From a virus, in IMG/VR virus record IMGVR_UViG_3300008448_010404, positions 1-64,000 of that record: a stretch of DNA of 64,000 bases. One strand, written 5' to 3'. The translations under genes and the position numbers were made by a program. Positions within the stretch are counted from its first letter, which is position 1. Each line of letters starts with the position of its first letter. The notes under the pieces are model-generated. The model did not search any database. It saw only the letters and a list, made by a program, of their open reading frames with translations, and was not told the origin of the DNA. Below, piece after piece: positions 25,520-64,000 of the stretch.

Positions 25520-25520
25520 A

Positions 25521-33581: not shown

Positions 33582-34211
33582 TTATTTAATTAACCAATTA
33601 TAATCAACAATCTGTTTTTGAATGTCTGAATACCCACTTTGTTGTTTTGCAACTCCAGGATAAAATGAATAAACATTATATTTTTTCTGTAGTTCAGAAT
33701 AAATAACATCAATTTGTTTATCATAATTTTTTAATAAAGGAATTATAACATCAAATAAATTTGATTTAATTCCAACCATATGAGCAGAATATGTGTTATG
33801 TAATTTAACAACATAATCATTTATATGTATAGGGGGTTTAATATTCATATGTGTATTATGGTTACCTCCGAAATATAACATATCCCAATCATCAGGAACA
33901 AATTTCATAAACTCATTAATTTTTACAATATCCTCAGTAAAGTAACAATCATCTTCAATTATTAATACATTATTAAATTTGTTTTTTTTTGATTCATTTA
34001 AAATATTAATATTTGTTTCAATAATACCAATCTCCCCATCTAGTAATCTTGAATTTATATTTTCACGGATAGATGAACCTAATATAGCGTCATATCTTTC
34101 ATAATTACCTAAATCAAATTTGATAACCTCATTATTAAATGAGGTTAATCTGTCTTCTCTATGTTTTAGATTAATACAGTATGTTTTATCAAATAAGTCA
34201 AACAATTTCAT
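33582..34211 (-). CDS. GT25-type glycosyltransferase
   Basis: A 209-residue GT25-family protein, the LPS galactosyltransferase and procollagen galactosyltransferase family. KTYCINLKHREDRLTSF (about 9-25) is the family N-terminus. Glu-Asp-Asp in VLIIEDDCYF (about 78-87) is the metal-binding acidic cluster; SAHMVGIKSNLFDVIIPLL and FYPGVAKQQSGYSDIQ are typical C-terminal segments. ATG 34211 was chosen: the frame is open to 34346 but that stretch lies inside the preceding gene and codes for no sensible sequence. It overlaps the tandem GT2 gene by 14 nt. Confidence 0.87.
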   Translation of the reverse strand: MKLFDLFDKTYCINLKHREDRLTSFNNEVIKFDLGNYERYDAILGSSIRENINSRLLDGEIGIIETNINILNESKKNKFNNVLIIEDDCYFTEDIVKINEFMKFVPDDWDMLYFGGNHNTHMNIKPPIHINDYVVKLHNTYSAHMVGIKSNLFDVIIPLLKNYDKQIDVIYSELQKKYNVYSFYPGVAKQQSGYSDIQKQIVDYNWLIK

Positions 34212-35589
34212 TTTTAAAATTTTTACTAATAATTTTATTATATAAGTCAACATGGTTTTTATTAGCATCAGTCGATACCGTCCCATCATTTTCATGATGA
34301 AAATACGTAAATAACGGTTTTGGTATTCTTTTACCAACATAACCATTTAATCCCATCCTAATCCATAAATCATAATCTTCCCATCCCTTTAAATTATTAT
34401 CATAACCATCACAAATATCAAATGCGTTTCTATGAAACATTGAACAATTAACAATAAAAGGTCCTTTAATTAATCTATCCATAGACCATTCAGGTCTTTG
34501 TTCAACACCTTGTAGTTCACCAATATGTTGTGTATCACAATAAACAGGACTTATATTTTTATTGTTTTTTAATATTGTTACACAAGACTGTATGTATTCA
34601 GGTTGAATCATATCATCAGCATCTAATGGTAAAATAAAATCACCGGTGGAGTTTCTAATACCGTTATTTCTAGCGGATGAAGGACCTTGATTTTCTTGAT
34701 ACACAACTTTAATGTTTTGGTGATTAATACTTTCTAGTTTTTTTAAAGTATATTCATCAGTTGACCCATCATTTACGATTACAATTTCAATATTTTTATA
34801 GTTAGATTCAAATACCGATTGTAACGTTTTTTCAAATTGTTTACCGTAATTATAAATTGGTATAATAACACTAACTAATGGTAATTTTTTATTAATTTTT
34901 AAATCAGGATAATATGAAGGTAATTTTATAGGTAAATGTTCTTTATATTTTTCCGATAACTTTTGTCTATTACTTTCCCATTCTGAATTTGTCATACCAA
35001 TTGACAAGTGAGTTAATGAAACGTTAGATATTGTCCCAATTTTAACACCTTCCAAATGATTAGACAAACAAAAAGAAATATCATAAAAATGAAATCCTTT
35101 AAATGTTTCATCAAAATTTGTTTTTAAATTTGATTTTTTAACTGAAAAAAATACACCATCAACAACAACCGAATCAATCACTTTAGACCCAAATGGTTTA
35201 TTATACTCACTAAGCCATCTTTTACCATCTTTTTGATGGTATACTTGACCAACCATTTCACCAGTAATTTCCCACCACATACATGATTTGGGTAAATAAG
35301 ATATTCCCGCAACTCCTAAAATACCATAATCAGGTTTTTTGGTATGATGTTCTAATATTCGTTTACCCCAATATTTTTGGTTAAAAATAACATCATTGTG
35401 ACAAAAAATAACAATATCATTTTTTGACTCAGATAACCCTTTGTTATAAATTTCCGTTAAACTATATTGATTATAGTTTTCATATTCTAAGATTTCCACA
35501 TCATTTAAACCAACAGTATCTAATAAATGTTGACGGAAGTTAGTGTTATATTTTAAATCTTTATGTGTTGAGTATACTATTGTAATCAT
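34198..35589 (-). CDS. Two-domain GT2 glycosyltransferase
   Basis: A 463-residue protein with two glycosyltransferase-like halves. The N-terminal half (1-225) begins MITIVYSTHKDLKY and has IVIFCHNDVIFN with a reduced DxD, resembling the family called Glyco_tranf_2_5. The C-terminal half (about 235-463) is a canonical GT2: VSVIIPIYNYGKQ, IEIVIVNDGSTDEY, ENQGPSSARNNGIRNSTGDFILPLDADD with the DxDD metal site, and a GWEDYDLWIRM motif. Bifunctional polymerising or disaccharide-adding transferases have this architecture. Whether both halves are active is unknown; the N-terminal motif is weak. Confidence 0.87.
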   Translation of the reverse strand: MITIVYSTHKDLKYNTNFRQHLLDTVGLNDVEILEYENYNQYSLTEIYNKGLSESKNDIVIFCHNDVIFNQKYWGKRILEHHTKKPDYGILGVAGISYLPKSCMWWEITGEMVGQVYHQKDGKRWLSEYNKPFGSKVIDSVVVDGVFFSVKKSNLKTNFDETFKGFHFYDISFCLSNHLEGVKIGTISNVSLTHLSIGMTNSEWESNRQKLSEKYKEHLPIKLPSYYPDLKINKKLPLVSVIIPIYNYGKQFEKTLQSVFESNYKNIEIVIVNDGSTDEYTLKKLESINHQNIKVVYQENQGPSSARNNGIRNSTGDFILPLDADDMIQPEYIQSCVTILKNNKNISPVYCDTQHIGELQGVEQRPEWSMDRLIKGPFIVNCSMFHRNAFDICDGYDNNLKGWEDYDLWIRMGLNGYVGKRIPKPLFTYFHHENDGTVSTDANKNHVDLYNKIISKNFKNEIV

Positions 35590-43291: not shown

Positions 43292-44599
43292 ATGGCATCA
43301 ACAGTAGTTATAGGTACAAGAAATTATAGTGGGGAAACTGCCGATATTACGTTTTACCCTGAAACAGGTGGGACAATAAATGTTGGTTCTCAAATTGTTC
43401 CGTATAATTATTCTACGGATTACTTCTTTGGTAAATATGAACTTTATTTTTCTGCATATAATTTTACTTGTGATTTTACAATATCATCAACAAACTCAAT
43501 ACCCGCACCTCAAACAATAACCGCAACAACCGTTGAATATGATTTATTCCAAAGATACACACAAGACCCTGAAAATTTTTCTGATGTTGATTTAAGTGGA
43601 ACAACATTTAGTGGTTTAACTACTAATATTTTAATTAATAAATATTTTGCAGGTTCTTTTGAAGGTGCAATATCTCAATTTAGATTATATACAACACCAC
43701 TATCAGCCCCTGAAGTTAAGCACAACTTTAGTTTATTGAAGAACCCGTTCATAATGTTTAATCCAGATTGTCCTGATTGTTCTACAGACACTTGTTCAAT
43801 TAATGATTTCACATATGTTGTTACTGACACCAATACAATAGAGGAACCAATTGATATTAGACCTGATGTTAATTTATTAGGTAGAAATTATATACCTGAT
43901 GTTAGAGATAATAATTATTTAATTAAAAATCACTTTGAATACTTACTACAAGTATATAACAAAAAACCACCGGTTAGACCAACACCGGTTAAACCATCAC
44001 CAATCAAACCAACACCAACACCATCACCAATATTTGTTACAAAATATTGGGATTCTGACGGATGGTGGGGTAATCAAGGTAATAAACCTCATTGTGTTGG
44101 ATTTTCTTGGGCACATTGGATTGAAGATGGTCCAATTGGTCATGGTGGTGTTCCACCTATCATTTCACCTGTTATAATTTATAATCAAGCACAGAAAATT
44201 GATGAATGGCCAGGTGAAAATTACGCAGGAACTTCAGTTAGAGCCGGAGCAAAATATTTAAAATCAATAAATGCAATACAATCTTATTATTGGGCTTACG
44301 ATTTAAACACGTTAGTTGACTGTATTTTTAAATTAGGACCTGTCGTTGTCGGAACGTATTGGTATAGTGGAATGTTTTCACCTGACGGTAATGGTTTGAT
44401 TAGAGCTTCAGGTGGTATAGTTGGTGGTCACGCTTATGTAATAAACGGTGTAGATAAAACAAAACAACTTTTCAGAATAAAAAATAGTTGGGGTAAATCT
44501 TGGGGTAAACAAGGTCACGCATTTATTTCATTTAGTGATATGTCAAGATTAATCTCAATGAATGGTGAAATATGTATTGCAGTTGAAAATAATTTTTAA
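43292..44599 (+). CDS. Tail protein with C-terminal papain-like cysteine protease domain
   Basis: A 435-residue protein. Residues 1-65 (VIGTRNYSGETADITFYP, PYNYSTDYFFGKYELYFSAYNF) are a beta domain shared with the 44604 gene. Residues 105-150 (AGSFEGAISQFRLYTTPLSAPEV) look like the end of a LamG fold. After a KPSPIKPTPTPSP linker (225-247) comes a C1-type peptidase: Gln262, Cys268 (HCVGFSW), His380 (GGHAYVINGVD) and Asn398 (KNSWGKSWG), with the papain Gln-to-Cys spacing of six. All four catalytic elements are present, so it is probably active. It could cleave host surface proteins or fibre precursors during adsorption or assembly. Confidence 0.88.
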   Translation: MASTVVIGTRNYSGETADITFYPETGGTINVGSQIVPYNYSTDYFFGKYELYFSAYNFTCDFTISSTNSIPAPQTITATTVEYDLFQRYTQDPENFSDVDLSGTTFSGLTTNILINKYFAGSFEGAISQFRLYTTPLSAPEVKHNFSLLKNPFIMFNPDCPDCSTDTCSINDFTYVVTDTNTIEEPIDIRPDVNLLGRNYIPDVRDNNYLIKNHFEYLLQVYNKKPPVRPTPVKPSPIKPTPTPSPIFVTKYWDSDGWWGNQGNKPHCVGFSWAHWIEDGPIGHGGVPPIISPVIIYNQAQKIDEWPGENYAGTSVRAGAKYLKSINAIQSYYWAYDLNTLVDCIFKLGPVVVGTYWYSGMFSPDGNGLIRASGGIVGGHAYVINGVDKTKQLFRIKNSWGKSWGKQGHAFISFSDMSRLISMNGEICIAVENNF

Positions 44600-45840: not shown

Positions 45841-48800
45841 ATGAGTGTAATACATATAACAAGTTTATCGGGACAATCCCCATTTAATATTACAATTTGT
45901 GATAAAACAAAAACTTATTGTGAGTTAGTCGCAACAGGTGTTGGTTCTGTACCCCCTGTTTTAGATTTAACAATACCCTCAAATATTAAATCAGACACAG
46001 TTTTAGTAATTGCCGAAGATTCAACAGGTTGTGAACAAATGATTGTTGTTAAATGTAGTACTACACCAACACCAACACCAACAATACAACCAACACCAAC
46101 TGTAACCCCAACACCAAATAAGTGTAAATGTTATACATTAATAAATCCAACATCGGATGAATTGGGTTTTGAAATTACATTATGTAATGGTGACTCTCTT
46201 TGTACCACTATAGATAGTTACACTAATTTATATTTTTGTGGTTATAACCCATCAATAGAATCACCAGGTTACATTGAATATAAAAATTTTGGTTGTGACA
46301 CAGGTGTCTGTCCTGAACCTGACCCAACTCCAACCCCAACTCCAACAATCACACCTAGTTTACCACCTATGGTTGCATCTTTTGTTAGTTGTTGTGACCC
46401 ATCAGTTAAATTCACAGTTTACAATATACCATTAACAAATTCACCAATAGGTGGGATTTATTATGTTGATAATAACGGATTTAATGGTTGTGCTGAAGTG
46501 ATAGAGACTGATATGACTTTACCATTATATCAAAACGAATTTTTGGTTTCGTCATTAAATTGTAGTCAATGTTTTATTGATAATCCATTATATATTTGTC
46601 CAACTAAAACCCCGACACAAACACCTAGTTCAACTGTTACCCCAACAAATACACAAACACCAACAAACACACAAACGCCAACAGTAACTCCAACAGTAAC
46701 TCCGACAGTAACACCAACAGTAACACCAACAGTAACACCAACAGTAACACCAACAGTAACGCCAACAGTAACGCCAACAGTAACACCGACAGTAACGCCG
46801 ACAGTCACACCAACAGTCACACCAACAGAAACCCCAACGAACACACCAACAGTAACGCCAACAGTAACACCGACAGTAACTAGAACAGAAACCCCAACAA
46901 ACACTCCGACAAATACACAAACTCCGACAAATACACAAACTCCAACAAATACACAAACTCCGACAAATACACAAACTCCAACAAATACACCAACAAATAC
47001 ATCAACTCAAACACCAACAAATACATCAACAAACACCCCAACAAAAACCCCAACAAAAACTTTAACAAAAACCCCAACTAATACACCAACTAATACATCA
47101 ACAAATACTCCGACTAATACACCAACAAATACCCCAACAGTTACGCCAACAGAAACACCTACAGTCACACCAACAAAAACGCCAACTAAAACGCCAACTA
47201 ATACACCAACAAACACCCAAACTAATACTCCAACAGAAACACCTACTAATACCCCTACAAACACCCAAACACCCACAAAAACTCAAACACCAACAGTAAC
47301 TACAACAAAAACACCCACAAAAACACCCACAAATACACCAACAAATACACCAACCCAAACCCCAACAAAAACCCAAACCCCAACAAAAACTGAAACACCC
47401 ACACCAACAGAAACACCAACTCAAACATCTACACCAACAGAAACCCCAACACCAACAAATACTGTTACACCAACTGTAACCCCAACTGTAACCCCAACAA
47501 AAACACCAACAAAAACCCCAACTGAAACTCCAACTAATACACCAACAAACACACCAACTAACACCTCAACTAACACCTCAACTAATACCCCGACCAATAC
47601 TTCAACTGTAACCCCAACAAAAACACCAACAAAAACTCCAACAAACACACCAACTGAAACTCCGACAAATACACCAACCAATACCCCAACAAATACCTCA
47701 ACAAATACCTCAACAAATACTCCGACTAATACTTCAACAGTAACCCCAACAAAAACACCAACAAAAACCCCAACAGAAACCTCAACTCAAACCCCGACTA
47801 ATACTGTTACCCCAACACAAACACCTACAAATACACCAACAAATACACCAACACAAACACCCACACAAACGCCAACAAACACCACAACAAATACTCCAAC
47901 AAACACACAAACGCCAACAAACACACAAACGCCAACAAACACACAAACTCAAACTCCTACTAACACTCCAACACCAACAATGCCTTATGACATGTTTATT
48001 GTCCAAAATTGTTGTGGAGGGACAACAGGATATATGGATTTACCAATAATCTATACACCAATTTTTTTCCCAACATATAAGAGTTATGTAGTTGTTGACA
48101 TTAACGGTAATTGTTATTTAATAACAGGTACTGCACCTGGTGGTGAAACACCTAATTTTATATGGAATGGTAACCCTAATGACGTATATATTGATAATGG
48201 TTCAGGTTGTTCACCATGTTTAGATGTTCATCCTTGTCCAACTCAAACACCCACACCTACAAAAACTCAAACACCCACACTTACAAGAACTTCAACCCAA
48301 ACCCCAACAAATACTCCAACTAATACACAAACCCCAACTAATACACAAACTCCGACTAACACACAAACATCAACACAAACCCCAACTAAAACAAAAACTC
48401 CAACACCTACTAAGGCACCTTTAATATGTTTTTCATTTTCATCAACAACAGGTACTAATGGTGTGTACACATTTAATGGTAATGCAACTGGAAGTTATAA
48501 TAATAGACCATACTATTCAATACAAATTCAAGACCCATCAATAACTGTTGTAGGTTATGTTTGGTTTAACACATCAACAAATGTTTGGGTTTATTCAGAA
48601 TTAATTGGTGGGGGTGTTAATTATAGTTCATTAATAACAACAAATCAGTACCCGATAAGTTCACCATCACTTAATTGGATTGGTTCGGTAAGTGGTAATG
48701 GTATGATTTCATCAATTTTAGGTTCATGTCCAACGCCAACACCAACACAAACCCCTACTCAAACACAAACACAAACACCTACTCAAACACAAACATCAAC

Positions 48801-51800
48801 ACAAACACCTACTCAAACACCTACACAAACATCAACACAAACACCTACACAAACATCAACACAAACATCAACACAAACACCAACAAATACTCAAACCCCA
48901 ACAAATACTCAAACACCAACAAACACTCAGACACCAACAAAAACACCAACCCCAACAAATACCACATATTGTTACTGTATAGTTATATTAGATTTTACTA
49001 GCGAATCAAGTTCAAGTAATTTTATAATATCAATTAATGGTGTTGAATATCAGTTTGGTGATTTATGGCATAAATCAACATATCTACAATTAGAAAATGA
49101 TTTAAATTTATTAAATCTAGGTATTTTTACAATAACCCCAACACAATTAGACCCAGATGTAGGTCAAATAAATGTTATAGGTGGTGGGTCAAATACATAT
49201 GATTATATTAGTGTTGGATTTGGGAATACCCCATTTAATTGTTATAACTGCCCAACACCAACACCAACAAAAACACCTACTAATACACCAACAAAAACAC
49301 CAACTAATACACCAACAGACACTCCAACAAATACCCCAACTAAAACCCAAACATCAACACCAACTAACACTGTTACACCAACTATTACTCTTACAAACAC
49401 ACCAACAAACACACCAACTAATACACAAACACAAACACCGACTAAAACAAATACGCCAACAAATACACCAACAAATACACCAACAAATACACCAACACCA
49501 ACAAACACACCTTCAATTAATATCCCACCTAGCCAAACACCAACAAACACACAAACATCTACTAATACACCAACTAATACACCTACTAACACTCAAACAC
49601 CAACTAAAACTGTAACACCAACTAAAACTGTAACACCAACAAACACTCCAACAAATACGTCAACAAACACACCAACAATTACATCAACTAATACACCAAC
49701 AAACACACAAACACCAACAAACACACAAACACCAACAAACACACAAACACCAACAAACACACAAACACCTACTAAAACACAAACTCCAACAAAAACACCT
49801 ACAAATACTCCAACGAATACAATAACTAACACACCAACAAATACCCAAACACCGACAAATACAAGAACTAACACACCGACTAACACACAAACTCCAACAA
49901 ATACACCTACACAAACTCCAACAAACACTCCGACAAATACACCTACAAATACTAGAACAAATACACCAACTACCACACCAACCAATACAAGAACTCAAAC
50001 CCCAACGAATACATCTACTATCACACCAACACCAACTAAAGTTTGTTATCCGGGCGCTGATTATATAATATTTGAGTATAATTATTTACCAAGTGCAGGA
50101 ACTGACCTTAATGTTGAAACGACTTTAGTTGTACCGACAACTGAAGGTCCGGTTGGGTATTGTAGTAATGGTTCACAACCATCAGGACAATACGGTGGTC
50201 CTTACTTATATTGGGGTGGTTATAACACTTTAAGTCCTGAAACATTTTATGTTGATGTTAACTCTTTAAAAACAACATATCCGTCATTATTTAATTTTAC
50301 AATAACATCAAATGGTAATTGGTTAACATCTGTAGGTAATGGTATTGTAAATGTTAAAATAACAATATACGCAGGTGGAACAATGTTATCTAACGGTAAC
50401 TTTGGATTTACAAATGCTGGTGGGACTATGTTATTACAACAAACTATCACATTACCACCAATAACAACTGTTAATAACACATGTTCAATTAGTGAATGTA
50501 TTAGTTCATTCACATACCAACTTTCTGATGGTTGTATCATTAAAACCACTTGTTTATCACCAACTCTAACACCTACAAACACCCCAACAAAAACACCTAC
50601 AAACACCCCAACAAGGACACAAACACCCACAAACACACCAACAAAAACGCCGACTAATACCCCTACCAATACACAGACCACAACTAACACAAGAACACAA
50701 ACTCAAACACCAACACAAACATCAACAAATACACAAACCCCTACTCAAACTCCAACAAATACACCCACACAAACTCCAACACAAACCCCTACTCAAACAT
50801 CCACTCAAACACCAACCCAAACACCAACACCAACGCCAACACCAACCATAGACTGTATTCAAGTTTGTGAAACAATACCGGCAACACCTCCTGTAAGTCA
50901 ATTGACTATTGGATTGGGTAATCAATTATCAGTATACAGTAATTTTGGAACATTATTATACCGTGAAGGTCTTTATGATAATTGTGGTGTTGGAACTCCG
51001 ACTTATTCAATGACAACCGCACCATTATGGAGAAGTACAACATCTACCAACGGTCCTTTAAATAATATAGGTATTTTTTCAAACCCTATTGACCAAACAC
51101 AAAAATGGATTGGATTTACAAAATGTATTGTTGTTACTCAGAGTAAAAGATATTATATTGGTTTAGCCGCTGATAATAATTATAGATTCTACATTGATGG
51201 TGATTTATTTGTTGATACTTCAGGTTGCTACGCATGTAACCCAGGAGGTGGTGGAGGTGCAACAACGGTATTTAATTATTGGAGAATTTATGAAAGATAT
51301 TTAGATGCTGGAGTTCACATTATACAAATGTTAGCACAAAACTGTGGGGACCAAGCCACAATGGGTGCCGAAATTTATGATAACACAATTCCCGAATTGG
51401 TTAATGCACAAACAGATAATGATTTAACTAAAATATTCACAACTAAAACATTTAGAGATATTGTTGAAGCCGGTGGAACTAGTTATTTTGACGTTGTTTT
51501 AAATAGTAACGGAACCCCAACAACTCAAGGTTACACTTGTCCTCCAGGATATGTTTATGGTTGTGAACAATGTTATTATTTTTGTAATGTTTGTATAACA
51601 AGAACACCAACAAAAACCCCAACAAACACACCAACAAACACCCCAACACCAACTCAAACACAAACATCAACTAACACACCAACAAGAACACAAACCCCAA
51701 CAAATACACCAACGAATACACAAACATCAACAAACACTCCAACAAACACACCAACTAATACGCCAACTAATACTCCAACTAATACCCCAACAAGAACTCA

Positions 51801-54800
51801 AACCCCAACAAATACAAGAACAAATACCCCAACAAACACACCGACAAATACACAAACCAATACACAAACATCAACTAATACACCCACAAATACACCTACT
51901 AATACAAGAACAAACACCCCAACAAGAACACAAACACCGACTAACACACCAACTAACACACCTACTCAAACACCAACTAATACTCCGACTAATACCGTAA
52001 CTCCGACTAATACACCAACTAATACCCCAACTAACACAAGAACAAACACACCTACAAGAACTGTAACACCAACAAACACACCTACAAGAACTGTAACACC
52101 AACAAACACCTCAACAGTTACTCCAACACAAACTCCAACAAATATTATTATTTATTTTAAATTTGAAGTGACTAGTTGTTGTCCTCAAGTGACAGGACCT
52201 GTATTTATTATGTCATTACCAAGTCATTATCAACCTGTAGGTACAACATCATATTCAGTTGTGGATACAACAGGTGTGTGTTTTAGAGTTGGTTCTATTG
52301 TTGATGAGTCAACACCAACAAATAGAACTTGGAACGGTAATACCTCTCAAGTTATAACAGGTATTAATAATATTAACCCTTGTATTCAATGTAATCTTAA
52401 TAACGGATGTCCAACCCCAACCCCAACCCCAACCGTTACTCAAACTCCAACTAACACTCAGACACCTACAAATACACCAACAAACACACAAACACCAACA
52501 AACACACCAACACCAACAAACACACCAACAAAAACCCCAACAAACACACCAACAAGAACACAAACTCCAACAAATACGCCAACCGTAACACCAACAAATA
52601 CCCCAACGAGAACTGTAACCCCAACAAACACACCAACAAGAACACAAACTCCAACAAATACGCCAACACAAACTCCAACAAATACACCAACTAACACTAA
52701 TACACCAACCGTAACACCAACAAATACCCCAACAAAAACTAATACCCCAACTAACACACCTACAAACACACCTACTAAGACACTAACACCAACTAACACA
52801 CCCACAAATACACGAACACAAACACCAACAAACACAGTTACACCTACAAATACACAAACTCAAACACCAACAAACACCCCAACGAGAACTGTAACACCAA
52901 CAAATACCCCAACGAGAACTCAAACACCAACAAACACAGTTACACCTACAAATACACCAACAAAAACAAAAACCCCAACTCCAACAAAAACTCCAACAAA
53001 TACCCCAACACCATCACCAACACCAGTTCCTGTTGATTACTTTGTTCAATGTGTTGAAACCGTATGCCCATCAGGTCAAGTTAATTTTGGACCTGAAGAT
53101 GACCCAGATACTATTTTTGGGACTTGGAATAGATTCGCACTTTTAGCACCAAACATATTTAACAATTATGCAGGTTCTCCTGTTCTTATTTCCGGTTTAC
53201 AACCTGACGGGTCAATAATCACTAATAACCCATCATATTATTTTTACACAGGTGCTACTAATACATATTATTTAGGTGTTTATAATTTACCAATGACTGA
53301 AGGTGAAAACGTTGGACCTGTAACTGCCGATGGTTCAATACTTGGTAAATTTTATTATAACTCAAACATTAAAAAAATGGTTGTTGTTTGGGACGTAGCA
53401 GGTGCGGGATACTATGAATGGACAACATTTAACCCAACCGTAAATGTTGGACTATCTTTAGGTCATCCAACGGCATCACAATTTTTAACAACCTCAACAA
53501 ATTGGGGAACAACTAATTTAACTAACGCTCAATTCACTGTTAGTGGTTCTAATAACACTGTAGTTTTAGCAACAACCAAAATAAATGATGCTGGGGGTGT
53601 TCCTAAAATGATTCAATGTACAAAAAATAGTGGATTAATTAACGGTTTTTATAGTGTATGTGAATACGGTAATTATGTTCACGAAGTAACAATAGGAAGT
53701 GAGTATAATGATGATGATTTTATAGGTATTGTTATCGCAGCAAAAAAAGGTTTAGGTACTAACCCTAACGCAACTGATATGTTAACGTTAGTGTTTAACG
53801 GAAATAGTGGTAGTGTTAATGTTGTTTACAACTCAGGTCAAGACGTTTACTCATTTAATGATTATGCGGGTTCAACATCTGCGGGTGTTATGATAGGTGG
53901 AACTAGTCCATTTGGTACTGGTTATTATAACACCAAAGGTCAAGTCAGAGTTAAGATTATTAAAACAAGTACAATAGTTAGTATATACACAACTCAACGT
54001 ATGGGTCTAAATGGTATTGTTCAGGCTGGAAATCCAAATCCATATACTTTATTATACCAATTTGATTTAACAGATAAAACAACTTGGAATGGAGCCCCAT
54101 CATATGCTGTAGGTAATGAATTATTGAAATTTACAAGTGGAACTAGTTTTGGTTACTTAACATCATCACAACCACTAAGTCAATTTTATGATATTGAATT
54201 TTCAAGTATTCAACAACCTTCAGGTGTTTTATACTCTAAAACTGTAACTAACCCTATTTTAGGTAAAACATATTCATTTTATGGTGTGGATGGTTGTTGG
54301 CAATATAGTGGTAAAACATTTAACTATACAGAATCTGATTTAGTAAGTATTACCGCTGAAACAATCAATAATAATTGTATTGATTGTCAAACTAACGTTA
54401 TTGATTGTTATGAAGTTACATATTCAAATATTACAATACCTGATAACTTAGACGCAGTACCTTACCCTGTTAATTTTGTAGTTCCACCGGGTGCGATTAC
54501 AGGTAATGTTACAAGAGTTGAACTTATTTTGAGTGGATATACTCATACATATACTCAAGATGTTGGTATGGTACTTGTCTCACCTAATAATGTTTCATCA
54601 TTAGTTGTTGGTAGACCTGTAGGTGCCCATGTAGCAAATAATATAAACGTAACACTTAATCATTACAGTCCGGATGTTTGGAATGGTTTTAGTGGTGGGA
54701 CATATAGAAATAATTCATACGTTAATTATGTGATGAACTTTTCACCGGGACCTAGTTATTCAACCATTAACACTCAAACACCTGATTTTAGTACGTTTGT

Positions 54801-57800
54801 TGGAATGTCCTCAACTAATGCAACGGGAACATGGAAATTTTATATTAAAGATTTCTCACCAGGTTATGGTGGGTCTATGTCAGGTGCAACATTAAGAATT
54901 TGTCACGAAATAATTCAACCAAGTCCAACCCCAACTAAAACCTCAACACCAACCCCAACCCCAACGAAAACTGTAACACCAACAAATACACCAACGAAAA
55001 CTGTAACACCAACAAATACACCAACAAGAACTGTAACACCAACAAAAACCCCATTATCAACAAATACCCCAACAAATACACCAACAAAAACTACAACACC
55101 AAGTAATACACAAACACCAACAAATACTCCAACAATAACTGTAACACCAAGTAATACACAAACCCCAACAAAAACACAAACGCCAACAAATACTCCAACA
55201 AAAACACAAACACCAACAAATACTCCAACAAAAACACAAACACCTAGTAATACTGTTACACCAACAAATACTGTTACACCAACAAATACTGTTACACCAA
55301 CAAATACTAAAACTCCAACAGTTACCCCAACAAAAACTACAACACCAACACCAACAGTAACCAAAAACTGTTTTAATGGTATTGTTATTGAATCAATTTA
55401 TCTTGATGATTATTCAGATATAAATTTATTACCACTTGAATGGCAAAATATTGGTTTGGGTAATGACTTTGTAATTTCCCCTACCGAGACTTTAACTAAC
55501 GTCGGAGTTGGTGGTCATGGTTGTAGTTCAGCTCTATTCGAATATAGGTCCGGGTCAGTTGTTCTTGGTGAAGGTAGATTAAATAATAATGGTAGTCCAT
55601 TAGCAGGTGCACAAACCGCGTCGGGAACATATATTTGTGGTGACTACTCTAACACACCGGCACCATTAACAGGAGGTGTTTGGGTAGGAACATCATCGTC
55701 TCGTTATAGTAAAATAGTTATAAGTCCTGAACAAGCTACCCAATTGGTGGTTCAATCAGGTGGTGGTTTTATAACTATTAGTACTTATTGTGCTAAATCG
55801 TTGTATAGTTGTTGTTCTAGTCCTGCAGGATGTAATTGTTGTGCATTATTTGATGGAAATTGTCACACAAATGCGATATTTGTAAGAATCACACAAGGAA
55901 ATGGTTCATTAATATATGCCGGTCCAGCACAGGTAGATACACCTGTTGTAGTTGACCCTTGTATCTCTGTAAGTCCAACACCAACAAAATCACAAACACC
56001 AACACCAACACAAACACCAACAGTTACACAAACTCCGACTAATACACAAACACCAACAGTCACACAAACTCCTACACAAACTCCTACAAAAACACCAACA
56101 AATACAACAACACCAAGTAACACACAAACTCCAACAAAAACACCTACACCAACAAATACACCAACAAAAACGCAAACTCCAACAAACACGACAACAAAAA
56201 CACCAACTGTTACACCTACACCAACTGTTACACCTACAAACACACCAACCACGACCGTAACACCAAGTTCATCAACAGGTTCAAATTGTAGATGTTATAA
56301 AAATTTAGGTTATGGAACACCTATATTAATACCTTCAACATATTCAACGGACCCTGAATTAGGTATTGCTTCACCATATCCTGTAATATTTAATGTTACC
56401 AATTTACCATTTGGTGTTATTACTAATGTGATTGTTAAAATTAGTGGTTATACTCACACTTTTCCAGGTGATATTGGAATGTCATTAGTGTCTCCAAATA
56501 ATAATGACTACGCACTACTAACAGGTAGGGCTGGTGGTGGTAGTGATGCCAACAACACTGATGTTATATTAGACGATAACGCCTCAACAGAATGGAATGG
56601 TTATAGTTCAGGAACATTTAGAAGTATCAGAACATCTCAAGGTGATTTCACATTTTCAAACGCATCATCAACACCACCACTTTTACCACCATCAATACCT
56701 TTTGTTACAAATAACACATATAATGGTTTATCTACATTTGTTGGAAGACCAAAAAGTACCGCAGAAGGTTTATGGGGGTTATATATTCAGGATTTTGCTG
56801 ATGATGATTATGGTCAAATATTAGGTATTGAATTGTGTATATGTACTTTAGATGTAACTTTAACACCAACAAAAACACAAACACCTACCCCAACACAAAC
56901 ACCTACTAAAACACCAACACCAACAAACACACCAACAAGAACAGAAACCCCAACACAAACCCCAACTAAAACGCCAACTCCAACAAACACTCAGACACCA
57001 ACAAACACTCAGACACCAACACAAACACCAACAAACACTCAGACACCGACTAAAACCCCGACCCCAACAAAAACACCAACACCAACACAAACCCCAACTG
57101 TTACACCAACAAAAACAAGACCACCACTAGATTTTACCGTAACATCATCTTGTGATGGTACTAATGCCGGAGTCAACATTACTAATATTATTGGTGGTGT
57201 TCCACCATATCAAGTTGGGGCTTCCGTGTTTTCAACTCAAGCCGCGGCATTAGCAAACACCAATTGGCTTAACGCTTCAAGTGTAAGTTATGGTGTTTCA
57301 ATTTTAGCATCACCTTCTTGGGTGGCGGTTAAAGATTCTTCAGGTACAATTTTAACAAAATCAACAACATTTACTTGTCCAAGTCCAACACCAACTAAAA
57401 CCCCAACAAATACCCCAACAAAAACTGTAACACCAACAAAAACTGTAACACCAAGTAATACACAAACACCAACAAATACTCCAACAAAAACTGTAACACC
57501 AAGTAATACACAAACACCAAGTAATACACAAACACCTACAAGAACTGTAACACCAACAAATACACCAACAAATACTAAAACCCCAACTGTAACACCGACA
57601 AAAACACCAACACCAACAACACCATATTCAGTATTTGCAGTTGATAGTTGTTGTGCTTCAGTAAGTGGGACTTTTTATATGTCATTACCAACACAATACA
57701 CACCATATTTTGACCCTGTTAATGGTGTGACAAAATGGGTGTTTGTTGGGACTGATAATATATGTTACATAGTTAACTCATTAGCTGTAGGTCAAACACC

Positions 57801-60546
57801 TAATAGAACTTGGAACACAACAATACTACCATATAAAAATGATGACTCTACACCGGGTTGTGTTAATTGTTCTTCAGTAAGACCTTGTCCATCACCAACA
57901 CCAACACCAACTAAAACACAAACGCCAACAATGACTAAAACACCAACACCAACACCAACAAGATGTCAATATTGTACCACATATAATTCAAACCAAAATA
58001 ATATAGCAATACCTGGAACAGGCACCGCAGGTACTGCATCGTCATACCCAATTACATTTAATGTTCAAGGGTTAAACACCTCAATTAGTAAAATTAACAT
58101 AACTTTAAATAACTATAGTCACGCATGTTTTGCTGACGTTGGTTTAGTTTTAGTAGCTCCCGATGGGACTTATTCATTACTAAGTATGAGATGTGGTGAT
58201 TGTATCCAAAGTTCACAAACAGTAATTAACCCAACAATATCATCAGATGGTGTAACAACATGGGATGGTAAGAGTTCAGGGACGTTCTCAAACATCACAT
58301 CACCATGTGGTACGCAAACATTTGCGGTTGTTCCCGGAATCACATTACCAACATTTACTAGTGGAGTCCAAACCCCATCATTTACGTCAGCATTTGTAAA
58401 TAAATCCGCATCATCAGCAAACGGTCAATGGAAATTACTTATTCAAGATTTTGGGAATAATGACATAGGTTCATTAGGTAGTGCAACTATCCAAATTTGT
58501 CAAAATACCCCATGTGGTTGTAATAGTTATAGGTTTGAAAATTACGCACCTGTTTCATTATTTGAAACTGCGACATTCACATTTACACCTTGTTGTAATA
58601 CTTTAGAAACATCACCAATTAATATTGATAGTAATGCTAAATACATAATCGAAGTTTGTTCATCAACAGTTCCTCAAGTATCAGGACCAGGAACTGTAAC
58701 ATTATTAGGACCATGTGATTATTGTAACAATTCATGTTACTGTTGGGATTTATTCACCCCTCAATGGACTGACTATGAATTAACCTATCTAAACTGTAGT
58801 GGAATTGTAACAAGTATTTATTTAGGACCAGGTAGTAGTTTTTCAATTTGTTCATCGTCTTATATAACATCACAACCTCAATTTGGGTTTGCCGCGACTA
58901 GAAGAGGAACATGTGCTGGAGGTGCTTGTCCAAGTCCAACACCAACAAAAACACCAAGTCCAACTCCAACAATGACAAAAACACCAACAAAAACTCCAAC
59001 ACCAACTAAAACACCAACAATGACAAAAACACCAACACCAACTAAAACACCAACAAAAACTCCGGTATTTATTCCTTGTGTTGGTGGTGGTTGTGCATTT
59101 AACACAACAGGTGATGTAATTTTAGGATTAAATATATTACCTCAAAATTGTAGTGGTGAATGTGATTTTCTTGGTAGTCCAATATCACCATATTATAGAA
59201 TAAACCAAGGTCCTTGGATTTTAAGTACTCAATTGTTTTATCCATCAACATTTAACTGTACTTATACTACACTTAATTTAACAGTACCATATGGTTCAAT
59301 AGTTGATATATATTTTCCTGGTATAAATTGGGGTGTGGGTAATAATAGTGGTGATTTTACATCAAGATGTAATAACCAATACGTAACATATACTGTAACA
59401 TCAAATACTAATGTTTATTTTAATTTAGGTGTAACAACAACCTCAACATGGAATCCATCACCAACCCCTTGGGACCCACCATATATCACATATTCTTGTA
59501 ATTTCACATCATGTTATAACAATAGAACACCTTATCCATGGGTATATACGTATACTAAATCATTATATGAAATATCCAACTTTAACGACCCATATTCATT
59601 TGAATTAATAACTGTTTATACTGAAAGTGGTGGAACATATAATGGTAAATCTTATTACGAAATTCCTGATAGTGATTATACTACTATTACGTCATATGTG
59701 TGGTATAATTCAGGGACAACTGAATGGAATAGTTCATCACTATTAGGTTCAGGTACGCTATACACAACATTAATAAGTAGTTCACCTGATGAACCAGTTG
59801 ATTCATCATCAAATGAATGGCAAATTATTGATTACTCAGGTCCGATAATAATTAGTTCACAACCTCAATACCCTATAGTTTCAACAGGTCTAATTGTTTG
59901 GTTAGATGCTGGAGCTAAAATATCGTGGTCAGGTACAGGTTTTGTTTGGTATGATATCACAACAAATAATAACGATGGTACTTTTTACCAATCTTTAAGT
60001 GCCACAACACCAAATTATTTACCGGCAAATGGTGGTTCATTTACTTTTAACGGTAGTGACCAAAAATTCAATATATCTAACTCACCAACATTATCGGCAA
60101 TAACAAATACCGTTACTGTTGAGGTTTGGTTGAAACCAACTTTGTTTGACAATAGAGAGATTTTTAGTAAAAATAGTAACCAAGGATTTAGAATGTGGAT
60201 AAACACATTAGGTCAATTAACTATGTTAGGTGCTAACGCCTCTAGTTATGAAGAATTTAGCAGCACAGGTACTGTGACTTTAAATCAATGGAATCAAGTT
60301 GTTGGGGTGTGGACACCTACAGGGTTTTACACTTATATTAACGGTGTTAATTCAGGTAATAGTTCGGCGTTGTCATTTTTAATACAACAATATAACTTAT
60401 CACTTGATATTGGTTGTTTCACAGGTAACTTAGCACAATTCCACTATCAAGGTGATATGTCAATATTTAGGTTATATAATAGGGCCTTAACTTCAGATGA
60501 AGTTTTATCAAACTTCAACTCTCAAAAAGATAGATTCGGTTTATAA
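45841..60546 (+). CDS. Giant 4,901-residue modular adhesin/fibre with mucin-like Thr-Pro linkers
   Basis: One uninterrupted frame of 14.7 kb. Small beta or Cys-rich domains are joined by Thr-Pro-Asn-Gln linkers; by my rough boundaries linkers fill some 1,800 residues, the longest at 46600-47979. Recognisable domains: N-terminal short repeats; a recurring CC...C..C...CPT domain (47980-48240, 52144-52414, 57621-57895, related at 46369-46600); a PA14-like sugar-binding domain (50851-51600); three proprotein-convertase P-domains (54406-54920, 56278-56860, 57964-58510); a paralogous pair at 48418-48735 and 59480-59870; a C-terminal LamG domain (59875-60546). No signal peptide or membrane anchor is seen. 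It is followed by a GT60-like gene. Likely a tail fibre or capsid-attached adhesin; which one cannot be told. Confidence 0.85.
46681..46824 (+). repeat. 12-bp tandem repeat encoding TVTP
   Basis: Twelve consecutive 12-bp copies (agtaacaccaac and single-base variants) encode TVTP in the first long linker. Neighbouring linker segments encode the similar TPTN and TQTP units with more varied codons, so this block is probably a recent expansion. Confidence 0.9.
54406..54920 (+). other. P-domain (proprotein convertase type), copy 1 in giant gene
   Basis: Encodes [38 protein letters not shown] and [27 protein letters not shown], which follows the P-domain order (IPD...I.I.H.Y..DL.I.L.SP.G...GTW.L...D...D.G.L....L). 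It resembles the domain that stabilises subtilisin-like convertases and occurs in many Bacteroidota surface proteins. Copies 2 (56278-56860) and 3 (57964-58510) share the same order. Confidence 0.8.
56278..56860 (+). other. P-domain, copy 2 in giant gene
   Basis: Encodes [41 protein letters not shown] and [15 protein letters not shown], aligned to copy 1 and copy 3 with the same HT..D.G..LVSP, FVG and GLW..YI.DF motifs. Confidence 0.8.
57964..58510 (+). other. P-domain, copy 3 in giant gene
   Basis: Encodes [80 protein letters not shown]. It carries the same GxWxLxIxDF...G.L...T..IC order as copies 1 and 2, with a Cys-Cys loop added near the start. Confidence 0.78.
59875..60546 (+). other. 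C-terminal LamG/concanavalin domain of giant gene
   Basis: Encodes [32 protein letters not shown]..., [29 protein letters not shown] and [22 protein letters not shown], the typical strands of LamG_3 domains. It is the last folded unit of the giant protein, so it is the best candidate for carbohydrate binding at the fibre tip. Confidence 0.85.
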
Positions 60547-60555
60547 TTAAATCTT

Positions 60556-60563
60556 TATTTATA
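60556..60563 (+). promoter_or_regulatory. TATTTATA motif before GT60-like gene
   Basis: TATTTATA ends 36 nt before ATG 60600, further than the usual 11-14 nt; the gap is AT-rich and ends in an A-run. Confidence 0.4.
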
Positions 60564-60599
60564 TATTAATAAACTTATTTTTTTAAAAAAAAGTAAAAT

Positions 60600-61847
60600 A
60601 TGAAAATTTTTGTGCAAATTGCATCGTATAGAGACCCAGAATTGGAAAACACAATCAAAAGTATGATTGAAAATGCTAAGAAACCTAATAATCTTAGAAT
60701 AGGTATCTGTAGACAGTATCATCCCGAAGATGGTTTTGATACTTTAAGTGAATACAGAAAAGATAAAAAATTTAGAATTTTAGATGTTTTATATTCAGAT
60801 TCTAAAGGAGTTTGTTGGGCAAGAAATCAAGTTCAACAATTATACGGTGGTGAAGAATATACTATGCAAATAGACTCACATATGAGATTTGAAAAAAATT
60901 GGGATGATGAGTTTATTAAAATGGTTAAACAATTACAAAAAAAAGGATTTAAAAAACCTTTATTAACAGGTTATGTATCATCTTTTAATCCGGAAAATGA
61001 CCCTGAAGAAAGAGTTAGAGAACCTTGGAGAATGGTGTTTGATAGATTCATACCTGAAGGTGCGGTATTCTTTTTACCTGAAACTATACCAGGTTGGGAA
61101 AATTTAAAAGAACCTGTACCATCAAGATTTTATTCCGCACATTTCGCATTTACCGTTGGTAAATTTAGTACTGAAGTTCAACATGACCCTGAGTTTTATT
61201 TTCACGGGGAAGAGATTTCAATCGCGGCAAGAGCTTACACACATGGGTATGATTTATTTCACCCCCACAAACCATTAGTATGGCACGAATATACAAGAAA
61301 AGGTAGAACTAAACAATGGGATGACGATATCGAATGGGTTAACAAAAATAATGTATCACATAAAAAGAATCGACAACTTTTTGGAATGGACGGTGAAATT
61401 GCCGAAGATGATTTTGGTATATATGGGTTTGGAACAGAAAGAGAATTATTGGACTATGAGATTTATTCAGGTTTAAGATTTTCAAAGAGAGCGGTTCAAC
61501 AATACACTTTAGATAAACATTACCCACCAAACCCTACAATTTACGGAACAGAACAAGAATGGGAAGAAAGTTTTGCATCTATTTTTAAACACTGTATAGA
61601 TATTGGTTATGATTCAGTTCCTGAAACGGACTATGAATATTGGGTTGTTGCATTTCATGATGAAAATGATGAAACAATACACCGATTAGATGCTGACATA
61701 CATGAAATTAATCGTATGAAAAATGACCCTGATGGGTATTGTAAAGTGTGGAGAGAATTTCAAACAACACATAAACCAAAATATTGGGTGGTATGGCCAT
61801 TTTCAACATCAAAAGGATGGTGTGATAGAATAACAGGTGATTTATAA
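60600..61847 (+). CDS. GT60-like polypeptide GlcNAc-transferase
   Basis: A 415-residue protein. Its first 110 residues match the GT60 (PF11397, glycosyltransferase GlcNAc) family: KIFVQIASYRDPELENTI (2-19), LRIGICRQYHPED (32-44), SKGVCWARNQVQQLYGGEEYTMQIDSHMRF (68-97) with the DxH metal site Asp92-Ser-His94. Characterised members glycosylate hydroxyproline of Skp1 (Dictyostelium) or threonine of mucins (Trypanosoma cruzi). The middle (165-250) has FYFHGEEISIAARAYTHGYDLFHPHKPLVWHEY, the expected acceptor region; the last 80 residues are an extra segment. It lies 53 nt after the Thr-Pro-rich giant protein gene, so the linkers are a natural substrate. Family match is from memory. Confidence 0.85.
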   Translation: MKIFVQIASYRDPELENTIKSMIENAKKPNNLRIGICRQYHPEDGFDTLSEYRKDKKFRILDVLYSDSKGVCWARNQVQQLYGGEEYTMQIDSHMRFEKNWDDEFIKMVKQLQKKGFKKPLLTGYVSSFNPENDPEERVREPWRMVFDRFIPEGAVFFLPETIPGWENLKEPVPSRFYSAHFAFTVGKFSTEVQHDPEFYFHGEEISIAARAYTHGYDLFHPHKPLVWHEYTRKGRTKQWDDDIEWVNKNNVSHKKNRQLFGMDGEIAEDDFGIYGFGTERELLDYEIYSGLRFSKRAVQQYTLDKHYPPNPTIYGTEQEWEESFASIFKHCIDIGYDSVPETDYEYWVVAFHDENDETIHRLDADIHEINRMKNDPDGYCKVWREFQTTHKPKYWVVWPFSTSKGWCDRITGDL

Positions 61848-61850
61848 TAT

Positions 61851-62240
61851 ATGAATTTAAGATTAGTAACAAATAACTCAAAATATTACGAATTTATTCG
61901 TGAGTTGAGAAATCATACAGATAATCTCTCAGGATTTATTATTCAAACAAATATCACAAAAGAAGACCAAATTAAATATATGGAAAAGTATGAAAAATTT
62001 TACTATATAGCGATTAATGAAAGTGAAATACCTGTTGGTTTTATTGGTGTTGTTGATAATGATATTCGTGTTGCCGTACATCCTGATTTTAAAAATCAAG
62101 GTGTTGGTAAATTTATGGTTAATGAAATAATAAATAATTATCCTAACTCTATTGCTAAAATTAAAATAGATAACACGGCAAGCATTAAGTTATTTGAATC
62201 TTGTGGGTTTAAAACTAAATTTTTAATAATGTCAAAATGA
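61851..62240 (+). CDS. GNAT-family N-acetyltransferase
   Basis: A 129-residue GNAT fold: KFYYIAINESEIPVGFIGVVDNDIRVAVHPDFKNQGVGKFMVNEIINNY (about 48-98) contains the conserved V-P-F-xNQGVGK acetyl-CoA loop (Q/RxxGxG/A), and NTASIKLFESCGFKTKF (107-123) is the C-terminal motif. It is 3 nt after the GT60-like gene and overlaps the DegT-like gene by 4 nt. In sugar operons such proteins acetylate amino-sugars made by a DegT-type aminotransferase, which fits the next gene. Confidence 0.88.
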   Translation: MNLRLVTNNSKYYEFIRELRNHTDNLSGFIIQTNITKEDQIKYMEKYEKFYYIAINESEIPVGFIGVVDNDIRVAVHPDFKNQGVGKFMVNEIINNYPNSIAKIKIDNTASIKLFESCGFKTKFLIMSK

Positions 62241-62881
62241 ATTATAGAAGACCATTACATAATCCGTTTAAAGTTGTTCAACTTTTTGAGGAAGAAGTTG
62301 CTGATTATACAGGTGCTAAATATGCAGTATCAGTAGATAGTTGTACTAATGCGATTTTTTTATGTTGTAAATATTTAAATGTTAAACAAGTAACCATCCC
62401 ATCAAAAACTTATCTATCAGTCCCACAATCAATTATACATTCGGGTGGTGAAGTAATCTTTGATAAAAGAGATGTAACTAATAATTGGGAAGGTATTTAT
62501 CAGTTAAAACCTTATAACATATACGACTCAGCGAAAAGATTCACTTCAAACATGTATATACCAGACACATTTATGTGTTTGTCATTTCATATTAAAAAAC
62601 ATTTAAAAATATCTAAAGGCGGTATGATTTTAACTGATAATTTAGATGCCGTTAAATGGTTTAAAAAAGCGAGATATGAAGGTCGTAGTGAAAAATTATA
62701 TCATGAGGATGATATCGAAATGTTGGGGTGGAATATGTATATGACACCCCAACAAGCATCTCATGGTTTATCATTAATGCAAAACATATCACCTAATAAT
62801 CCTGACTTAATTGAGAATGACGGGTATCGTGATTTAACCGAATTCACAATTTTTAAAAAACATAAAATAATATATGAATAA
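62237..62881 (+). CDS. DegT/DnrJ/EryC1-type aminotransferase, short form
   Basis: A 214-residue PLP aminotransferase of the sugar-modifying DegT family, which adds an amino group to 3- or 4-keto-sugar nucleotides. VADYTGAKYAVSVDSCTNAIFLCCKYL (22-48) is the N-terminal helix-strand, VTIPSKTYLSVPQSIIHSGGEVIF (56-79) follows, and SFHIKKHLKISKGGMILT (121-138) carries the PLP Lys. Typical members have 350-400 residues; this one ends after the large domain, without the C-terminal small domain. It is therefore a reduced or truncated enzyme. It overlaps both neighbours and belongs to the same transcript as the GT60-like and GNAT genes. Confidence 0.85.
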   Translation: MNYRRPLHNPFKVVQLFEEEVADYTGAKYAVSVDSCTNAIFLCCKYLNVKQVTIPSKTYLSVPQSIIHSGGEVIFDKRDVTNNWEGIYQLKPYNIYDSAKRFTSNMYIPDTFMCLSFHIKKHLKISKGGMILTDNLDAVKWFKKARYEGRSEKLYHEDDIEMLGWNMYMTPQQASHGLSLMQNISPNNPDLIENDGYRDLTEFTIFKKHKIIYE

Positions 62882-64000
62882 AATTTGTTTTGTATTAGAT
62901 TGTCATTATTCTAATTATACTAACCGACTAAAAACCACATCATTAAAAAATTTTATTGATTTAAAACTTAATGAGTATGGGGTTCATTTTTTGATATCAA
63001 CAAATCAACCTGAAGATTTTAAAGATTTTGAATCGGAATATATCAAAATTTTTGATATAAATGAATTACGTAAAGATAATGATGTCTCTTTAACCTATGA
63101 ATTATTACCTGATGACCCTACAGGTATTTATCCTTCAAGATTCCCTTGGAATATCGAAAGGTTTATCTTGAAAAAAGCTGGTGAGTTAGGGTTTAATATC
63201 GTGATTAATTTAGATTCTGACGTTATAATAGATGAACGTTTTACTTCAGAATATATTATCCAACACATTGAAAACTCATTTGTTGAAAACACGGTTATGA
63301 CTAATCAAGCGTTATTTTCATATGAAGAAAATTCAACTAACGAAATCTTTAACTTACATAATAGATACATTGAACATTTCAATTTAGATTTTAAAACTGA
63401 GGAGTATAATAGTCTAGACGGTCCTGTTGTAATTTACATGGGAAAAACATCAGATGATATATTAAGATACGCCGAAAATTGGGATATGTTAACTTCATTT
63501 GGTTACACTAAACCTTTAGGTTTTGGTTATGAAAATATTGTTTGTGGTAATTGGTCATTATGTATTCCTATGTCAAATTTTAAATTAAAATGGCATGATT
63601 TTCCATTAACCCCACACCATAAATTTGAAGATAGATATGATATGTCAAAAGTTAATACACCTATTAGTGAATCAAAAACAAGTGATATTAATGAACCTAA
63701 TATAATTTATGTTAATGATAATGTAACAAATGACATAAAAGAAAAAATAAACGATACTTTGGGTTCAATTTTTGAAAAATACTCATCAGAAACCCATGGT
63801 GGTGATTTTTCTAATTTATTAAATGACGTTGTAACATTAATTAATAACAAAATAACAAATGAAACTAAAGTAATTAATAATAACATTACATTAGATTCTT
63901 TATTTGAAAAGTATTCTTGTTCAAAATTAGAACATGGTTTTTCTAAAATATTTGAACCTTATTTAAATCAATTAAAAAATAGTAATCCGTCAATACTAGA
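62874..64000 (+). CDS. Glycosyltransferase fused to methyltransferase-like N-terminus (partial)
   Basis: The frame starts at ATG 62874, 8 nt before the end of the DegT-like gene, and is open to the end of the window (375 codons seen). Residues 1-260 are a GT-A type glycosyltransferase: MNKICFVLDCHYSNYTNRL, FPWNIERFILKKAGELGFNIVINLDSDVIID with the DxD, and LGFGYENIVCGNWS. From about residue 295 there are two related segments, DTLGSIFEKYSSETHGGDFSNLLN and LDSLFEKYSCSKLEHGFSKIFEPY, then NPSILE, the usual entry (L..KY...K..HG(Y/F)..(I)(Y/F)E.Y...ILE(I)G) of a SAM-dependent methyltransferase. The protein probably adds a sugar and methylates it or a neighbour. Confidence 0.8.
   Translation, partial: MNKICFVLDCHYSNYTNRLKTTSLKNFIDLKLNEYGVHFLISTNQPEDFKDFESEYIKIFDINELRKDNDVSLTYELLPDDPTGIYPSRFPWNIERFILKKAGELGFNIVINLDSDVIIDERFTSEYIIQHIENSFVENTVMTNQALFSYEENSTNEIFNLHNRYIEHFNLDFKTEEYNSLDGPVVIYMGKTSDDILRYAENWDMLTSFGYTKPLGFGYENIVCGNWSLCIPMSNFKLKWHDFPLTPHHKFEDRYDMSKVNTPISESKTSDINEPNIIYVNDNVTNDIKEKINDTLGSIFEKYSSETHGGDFSNLLNDVVTLINNKITNETKVINNNITLDSLFEKYSCSKLEHGFSKIFEPYLNQLKNSNPSIL

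Follow-up and report, generated by a model that had tools for sequence, protein, structure and literature searches.

The window analysed here, positions 1-64000 of a 71,442-bp IMG/VR virus fragment (IMGVR_UViG_3300008448_010404), is from a large aquatic phage and encodes a giant adhesin-like protein whose domains are spaced by Thr-Pro-rich linkers and, directly downstream of it, a GT60-type glycosyltransferase. Because the window also encodes a terminase, a portal and a major head protein, it comes from a tailed phage. The reading that we favour, with somewhat better than even confidence, is that the two genes belong to an operon for mucin-type O-glycosylation in the phage, in which the first step is the addition of an N-acetylhexosamine (HexNAc) to linker threonines; the partnership of enzyme and linkers is statistically supported, not proven. 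The evidence consists of the family, active-site motifs and predicted fold of the enzyme, the operon in which it lies, selection on the linker threonines, and the co-occurrence of enzyme and linkers across separate acquisitions of the enzyme. Coordinates are given in Table 1.

A first-pass annotation of the window had described a 4,901-residue protein with linkers making up about a third of its length and a GT60-like gene 53 nt downstream, and both descriptions held up. The adhesin-like protein combines a Cys-rich N-terminal module with P-proprotein-type domains (PF01483, E = 1.6e-13) and LamG-like domains, the latter read by eye and without a Pfam match, which are spaced by at least 23 Thr-Pro-Asn-Gln linkers. 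The Thr/Pro-rich tracts amount to 1,803 residues, 36.8% of the protein, and are composed of 47.5% Thr (856 residues), 21% Pro, 9.7% Asn and 5.8% Gln. Comparable figures are known from the mucins of Trypanosoma cruzi (46-54% Thr, 6-9% Pro and 10-13% Asx), in which a GT60-type enzyme modifies KPPTTTTTTTTKPP; with Mn2+, that enzyme uses oligo-Thr peptides as acceptors (PMC3769586).

The product of the downstream gene matches the Pfam family PF11397, 'Glycosyltransferase (GlcNAc)', which we used as a proxy for CAZy family GT60 (E = 1.2e-69; 236 bits against a cut-off of 21), and the phage family phrog_24687, 'glycosyltransferase' (E = 3e-164). An alignment of 23 homologous sequences, with identity down to 36%, has two invariant motifs, D92-S-H94-x-R-F and W228-H-E-Y-T-R233. 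The enzyme thus has the DxH motif and C-terminal His that are expected of GT60 and GT27, for which we predict a role in metal binding. DxH replaces DxD in both GT27 and GT60, which belong to one clade and both glycosylate Ser or Thr of polypeptides, according to a survey of GT-A enzymes (PMC7185993).

An AlphaFold2 model of the enzyme (pLDDT 77.9, pTM 0.74, weak at residues 133-161) consists of a GT-A core and a separate C-terminal beta domain of 90 residues (approximately residues 325-415). The closest match to this model in a fold search of the PDB is the polypeptide GalNAc-transferase (ppGalNAc-transferase) 6e4r (E = 4e-11). Most of the top 50 matches are mucin-type ppGalNAc-transferases, and the remainder are the teichoic-acid transferases TarS and RmlT. 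The moderately confident model therefore has a GT-A fold related to GT27. The profile and structural comparisons with GT60 that the first-pass annotation had proposed both bear out its assignment. PF11397 is the sole Pfam match of the enzyme, with no ricin-type lectin match in the C-terminal beta domain, and searches of PDB sequences for a solved relative returned only non-significant matches to FGF with the single sequence and none with a profile. Without a ricin-type lectin domain or a GT27 sequence match, the enzyme does not appear to be a GT27 ppGalNAc-transferase.

The linker codons point to the residue that matters. We compared successive four-codon units within linkers base by base (324 comparisons). 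For the Thr codons, 1-4% of comparisons show a difference in the first two bases and 45-60% in the third, and the first two bases of the Pro codon differ in 28% and 41%; as the test starts from TxTP units in Thr-rich stretches, it is mildly biased in favour of Thr, and the informative part is the asymmetry between Thr and Pro. From this pattern of divergence by codon position, protein-level selection holds Thr at every second residue and constrains Pro far less. With Thr kept while Pro and the spacer residue drift, Thr is the likely functional residue of the linkers. Pure DNA slippage as the origin of the linkers is ruled out by the third-base divergence alongside constant Thr. Long Thr/Pro-rich tracts, disordered to judge from their composition, together with selection for Thr, give the protein the character of a mucin-like acceptor.

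Enzyme and linkers also occur together in relatives. Loci of the window's clade were fetched by the enzyme sequence alone, and removal of GT60 genes that were at least 92% identical left 39. A tail-type gene precedes GT60 in the same orientation in all 39, mostly with a gap of 50-90 nt. The gene immediately upstream contains a linker with TPT motifs (TPT linker) in 26 of the 39, compared with 43 of 424 other flanking open reading frames (ORFs; Fisher p = 6e-15), although the clade loci are related and this value, like the contig-level figures below, ignores relatedness and so overstates independence. As the 27 upstream TPT proteins, that of the window included, have 16 types of C terminus, the pairing outlasts swapping of the adhesin tip.

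At the level of whole contigs, TPT motifs are present in 27 of 28 GT60-positive contigs, mostly also where the immediate neighbour of GT60 lacks them; among GT60-negative contigs, 6 of the 18 that are portal relatives and 2 of the 12 drawn at random have them. When contigs of at least 60 kb are considered, linkers are present in all 25 with GT60 as against 5 of 14 without it, and the median density of TPT motifs per 100 kb is 11.2 versus 0 in GT60-positive and GT60-negative contigs. Sampling in the reverse direction, from 80 contigs picked solely by a TPT DNA pattern, recovered PF11397 in 20 contigs, and in 13 of the 22 that are at least 80 kb long. PF11397 was found in 2 of 38 portal relatives and in one of 43 contigs that an arbitrary 15-mer had picked out; that one (G141) has TPT motifs too. 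The survey of relatives proposed in the first-pass annotation thus finds the two features linked in both loci and contigs, but TPT linkers also occur without GT60.

The association recurs in phage isolates outside the window's clade. GT60 relatives are present in only 3 of 50,697 phage records, those of Xanthomonas phage XacN1 and Stenotrophomonas phages RAS14 and CM1. XacN1 has 90 TPTxTP motifs and RAS14 has 56, with 2 of the reversed pattern in each; 14 phages with a related polymerase, nearly all of them jumbo phages, have no PF11397 match and 0-1 TPTxTP motifs. Linkers make up about 2,000 residues in XacN1, spread over at least 14 proteins, several of which are encoded beside tail-sheath or structural genes. 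In a quick tree of GT60 sequences, which requires at least three changes of label between viral and bacterial sequences, the XacN1 group clusters with Burkholderiaceae sequences and is separate from the window's clade; by this tree, the XacN1 group acquired GT60 separately. The authors of the XacN1 genome listed its GT60 gene, ORF334, as a glycosyltransferase and reported at least two XacN1 glycoproteins from proteomic analysis (PMC5852040).

Several observations weigh against a partnership of linkers and GT60. The linker genes of XacN1 and RAS14 are dispersed, away from the GT60 locus, and a TPT gene lies directly upstream of GT60 in only 6 of the 20 linker-sampled contigs that have it. Adjacency is therefore not general and is loose outside the clade, and given these two results we dropped adjacency alone as an argument. 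The partnership that the first-pass annotation drew from juxtaposition keeps its support from co-occurrence, in the clade and in separately acquired isolates. PF11397 is absent from 60 of the 80 linker-sampled contigs, many of which are fragments, and few of 80 cellular GT60 loci, taken from genome contigs, have a TPT protein nearby. Obligate pairing is ruled out, since TPT linkers without PF11397 are common and most bacterial GT60 genes have no TPT in their vicinity; the cellular loci also mean that the GT60 family can have other acceptors. Some GT60 genes of the clade are preceded by non-TPT proteins that are glycine-rich (L055, L062, L063) or contain GTSG repeats (L072), the enzyme model is only moderately confident, and a 202-kb contig (G054; L567:5842-19944) has a 4,701-aa ORF of near-pure repeat, with 4,291 linker residues, but no PF11397 match. 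This contig may be a fragment or use another enzyme, or its linkers may function unglycosylated. Finally, no glycopeptide has been shown for any TPT linker. The G054 ORF and the lack of a glycopeptide are the reasons for holding our confidence at the level stated at the outset.

The enzyme could instead modify virion tail or adhesin proteins at folded domains or other repeats, the TPT linkers being unglycosylated spacers that are common in the same adhesins. We consider this unlikely, while recognizing that the Gly-rich and GTSG-repeat tail proteins ahead of GT60 in some relatives fit it, as do 23 bacterial loci (Table 1) in which GT60 directly follows a fimbrial-tip adhesin. These loci, from Burkholderiaceae and enterobacteria (Burkholderia, Paraburkholderia, Cupriavidus, Trinickia, Yersinia, Serratia, Lelliottia, Atlantibacter and Enterobacter), lie inside type VI secretion loci, have the gene order TssA, fimbrial-tip adhesin, GT60, and have almost no TPT nearby; a literature search on this arrangement found no paper. 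They suggest that the constant partner of GT60 is the adhesin rather than the TPT linker, which may be the form that this neighbour takes in phages. Modification away from the linkers is opposed, however, by the selection on Thr spacing, by the linkers that GT60-positive contigs without adjacent TPT mostly carry elsewhere (TPT in 27 of 28 contigs), and by the GT60-negative jumbo phages of the XacN1 group, which lack linkers entirely. In L072 (2-2407), the protein preceding GT60 has GTSG/GSS collagen-like triplet repeats in place of TPT linkers.

Another candidate substrate is suggested by the genes that surround the enzyme. The GT60 gene opens a same-strand run of glycan genes that reaches approximately contig position 69255 and appears, from its predicted products, to be a set of glycan-building genes bracketed by linker proteins (Table 1). 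It is quite unlikely, in our view, that GT60 and the following cluster modify host surface polysaccharide (by O-antigen or capsule conversion, excluding other phages) and have no virion acceptor. This is the usual reading of phage sugar clusters (PMC7824862), and it would suit both the second glycan region of the window, on the minus strand, with its GDP-mannose dehydratase, GT10, GT11 and GT2 genes, and the location of some bacterial GT60 genes within glycan-biosynthesis clusters (L505, L493). Yet no flippase, polymerase or undecaprenyl-phosphate transferase was recognized among the scanned genes, in every one of the 39 relatives the gene comes after a co-oriented tail-type gene, characterized GT60 members act on polypeptide (PMC7185993, PMC6939170), and XacN1 is reported to have glycoproteins (PMC5852040).

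A functional link would be unnecessary if both features were hitch-hiking in an often-exchanged tail-tip region of huge aquatic phages and shared only ancestry or locus. The upstream proteins are indeed mosaic, with exchanged C-terminal domains, the clade loci are related, and TPT linkers are found in relatives without GT60. We nevertheless regard hitch-hiking as very improbable, because the same association is seen in the XacN1 group, which gained its GT60 separately and has its linker genes away from the GT60 locus, and again in the unselected random contig G141 and in the bacterium Jiulongibacter. Many phage glycosyltransferases act on hypermodified DNA bases (cited in PMC12619734), but that this one does so is scarcely credible given its polypeptide-transferase fold and motifs and the position of its gene in a tail/adhesin operon, not among nucleotide-modification genes.

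Table 1. Positions of the enzyme, its proposed acceptor, other glycan-related genes and the type VI loci; positions are those of the window unless marked otherwise.
Feature	Position	Strand	Evidence
Adhesin-like multidomain protein, 4,901 aa, proposed acceptor	45841..60546	+	ORF list, composition
Longest linker tract, residues 252-718, near-continuous TxTP repeats	46594..47994	+	composition
Linker tract, residues 2187-2397	52399..53031	+	composition
Linker tract, residues 3025-3176	54913..55368	+	composition
GT60-type (PF11397) candidate polypeptide HexNAc-transferase, 415 aa	60600..61847	+	profile, motif, fold
D92-S93-H94, DxH metal motif, invariant in 23-sequence alignment	60873..60881	+	alignment
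H229-E-Y-T-R233, candidate C-terminal metal-binding His, WHEYTR invariant	61284..61298	+	alignment
GNAT acetyltransferase, 129 aa, candidate for amino-sugar N-acylation	61851..62240	+	PF00583, E = 6.6e-10
DegT/DnrJ/EryC1-like sugar aminotransferase, short (214 aa), possibly truncated	62237..62881	+	PF01041, E = 1.5e-20
Multidomain glycosyltransferase with GT25-type domain, 1,076 aa, start only in window	62874..64000, runs to contig 66104	+	
GT25-like protein, beyond window	contig 66110-66856		
TylF methyltransferase fused to HtrL_YibB domain, beyond window	contig 66859-69255		
TPT-linker protein, 208 aa, beyond window	contig 69318-69944		
Epimerase	24455-25549	-	
GDP-mannose 4,6-dehydratase	29716-30696	-	
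GT10	31940-32719	-	
GT11	32721-33542	-	
GT2	34198-35589	-	
Type VI GT60 loci: L503, L507, L513, L515, L517-L521, L523-L528, L530, L539, L546, L556, L559, L563, L564, L566	GT60 near locus position 6001		

Other features of these loci are recorded here. The second glycan-rich region of the window (14447-40990, minus strand) has PhoH, dUTPase and exonuclease genes interspersed, and its predicted enzymes suggest a GDP-fucose-type sugar and fucosyltransferases. Upstream of the adhesin gene, positions 43292-44599 encode a C1 papain-type peptidase domain (PF00112, E = 7.6e-05; phrog_16701, E = 6.5e-52), and in XacN1, too, a gene of the papain family lies close to one for a linker protein (ORF382/384). 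A conserved N-terminal module (approximately GxxPFxIxICDxTxTYC) opens most GT60-adjacent linker proteins, including that of the window (45841 onward) and those of L005, L007, L012, L016 and L024, and may anchor them to the virion. A large same-strand gene follows GT60 in XacN1, RAS14 and G141 (L083, L084, L569); it is annotated as a carbamoyltransferase in XacN1 and looks similar in G141, and carbamoylated sugar caps are one possible product. In Jiulongibacter sediminis (L493:3945-11142) a TPT protein is flanked by two PF11397 genes, followed by genes for a carbamoyltransferase and an FkbM methyltransferase + HtrL_YibB protein, so that the order GT60-carbamoyltransferase is found in this bacterium, in XacN1 and, by appearance, in G141. 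Judged by its predicted genes, the Jiulongibacter locus is a cellular version of the phage cassette.

For a mucin-type O-glycosylation operon, we infer which donor and acceptor are used, how the sugar is linked, how the chain is extended and that the window's protein lies on the virion, as follows. The GT60-type product would be a cytoplasmic, metal-dependent, retaining polypeptide HexNAc-transferase that, during infection, puts alpha-linked HexNAc, probably N-acetylglucosamine (GlcNAc) from the host UDP-GlcNAc pool, on Thr of the Thr-Pro linkers of the giant adhesin and of this phage's other linker proteins. The downstream aminotransferase, acetyltransferase, GT25- and HtrL-like transferases and methyltransferase would then extend or cap the chains, and the outcome would be stiff mucin-like stalks, resistant to proteases, by which the adhesin domains are kept apart on the virion. 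The first-pass annotation had proposed a dedicated glycosylation system. The occurrence of GT60 with linkers in the clade and in XacN1 and RAS14 agrees with such a system, but the enzyme probably acts in trans on many linker proteins, as part of a larger glycan operon, and not on one dedicated acceptor. Thr is favoured over hydroxyproline as the acceptor because the prolyl hydroxylase model PF13640 matched in none of 19 GT60-positive genomes, a result that concerns one model and phage genomes only and leaves room for host enzymes; a hydroxyproline route of the Skp1 Gnt1 type, with its own prolyl 4-hydroxylase, was rejected on the same result.

In Gram-positive bacteria, giant serine-rich-repeat adhesins are followed by genes for their own cytoplasmic O-GlcNAc-transferases, GtfA/GtfB, and for further transferases. 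Those systems differ from the one proposed here in being Ser-rich and cellular, in using a GT4-type enzyme unrelated to GT60 and in relying on accessory Sec export. Like the T. cruzi enzyme TcOGNT and its mucins, the window pairs a GT60-type enzyme with an acceptor region that is about half Thr, with Pro and Asn, and in which Thr far exceeds Ser (PMC3769586); the trypanosome enzyme, however, is a eukaryotic Golgi membrane protein without gene pairing, whereas the window's enzyme is phage-encoded and probably cytoplasmic, and its gene shares an operon with that of the likely acceptor. Skp1 Gnt1 of Dictyostelium and Toxoplasma is of the same family and cytoplasmic (PMC6939170), but acts on a single hydroxyproline made by a prolyl hydroxylase. 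The animal ppGalNAc-transferases (GT27) provide the closest solved folds and share the DxH motif and mucin-type Thr/Ser acceptors; they differ in their UDP-GalNAc donor and ricin-type lectin domain, in place of which the window's enzyme, 10-17% identical, has another C-terminal beta domain.

To our knowledge, virion glycosylation has rarely been shown in phages. Mycobacteriophage transferases decorate virion proteins (Freeman et al. 2023, cited in PMC12619734), as proposed here, but there the glycans are on the C termini of capsid and tail-tube subunits, with no mucin-like linker. XacN1 resembles the window in its GT60 gene (ORF334, 48% identical), TPT-linker proteins and at least two reported glycoproteins. 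It differs in its dispersed linker genes and in the carbamoyltransferase beside GT60, and the parts of its paper drawn on here name no GT60, linkers or link between them (PMC5852040). Literature searches found no paper joining phage, GT60 and glycosyltransferase, and nothing relevant on Thr-Pro phage linkers or jumbo phage O-glycosylation. Phage virion glycosylation is thus already known, and a mucin-type enzyme and acceptor are plausibly what is new here.

A broader proposal, to which we give an even chance, is that several unrelated huge phages each took up a bacterial GT60-type enzyme independently and use it to make true mucins, that is, virion proteins on which Thr-linked glycans, in their hundreds to thousands, are initiated by GT60 and finished by a variable glycan operon. 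Mucin-type O-glycosylation would then extend beyond eukaryotes, and adhesins of type VI secretion loci would be served by the same enzyme family. Glycosylation of Thr-Pro linkers can be tested on the existing XacN1 proteomics data (PXD008065, named in PMC5852040), and the enzyme could serve as a simple tool for Thr O-glycosylation in bacterial expression. If correct, our reading would explain the conspicuous and so far unexplained Thr-Pro linkers of huge aquatic phages and give GT60 a prokaryotic role; a sugar coat on the tail stalks could influence adsorption and resistance to proteases.

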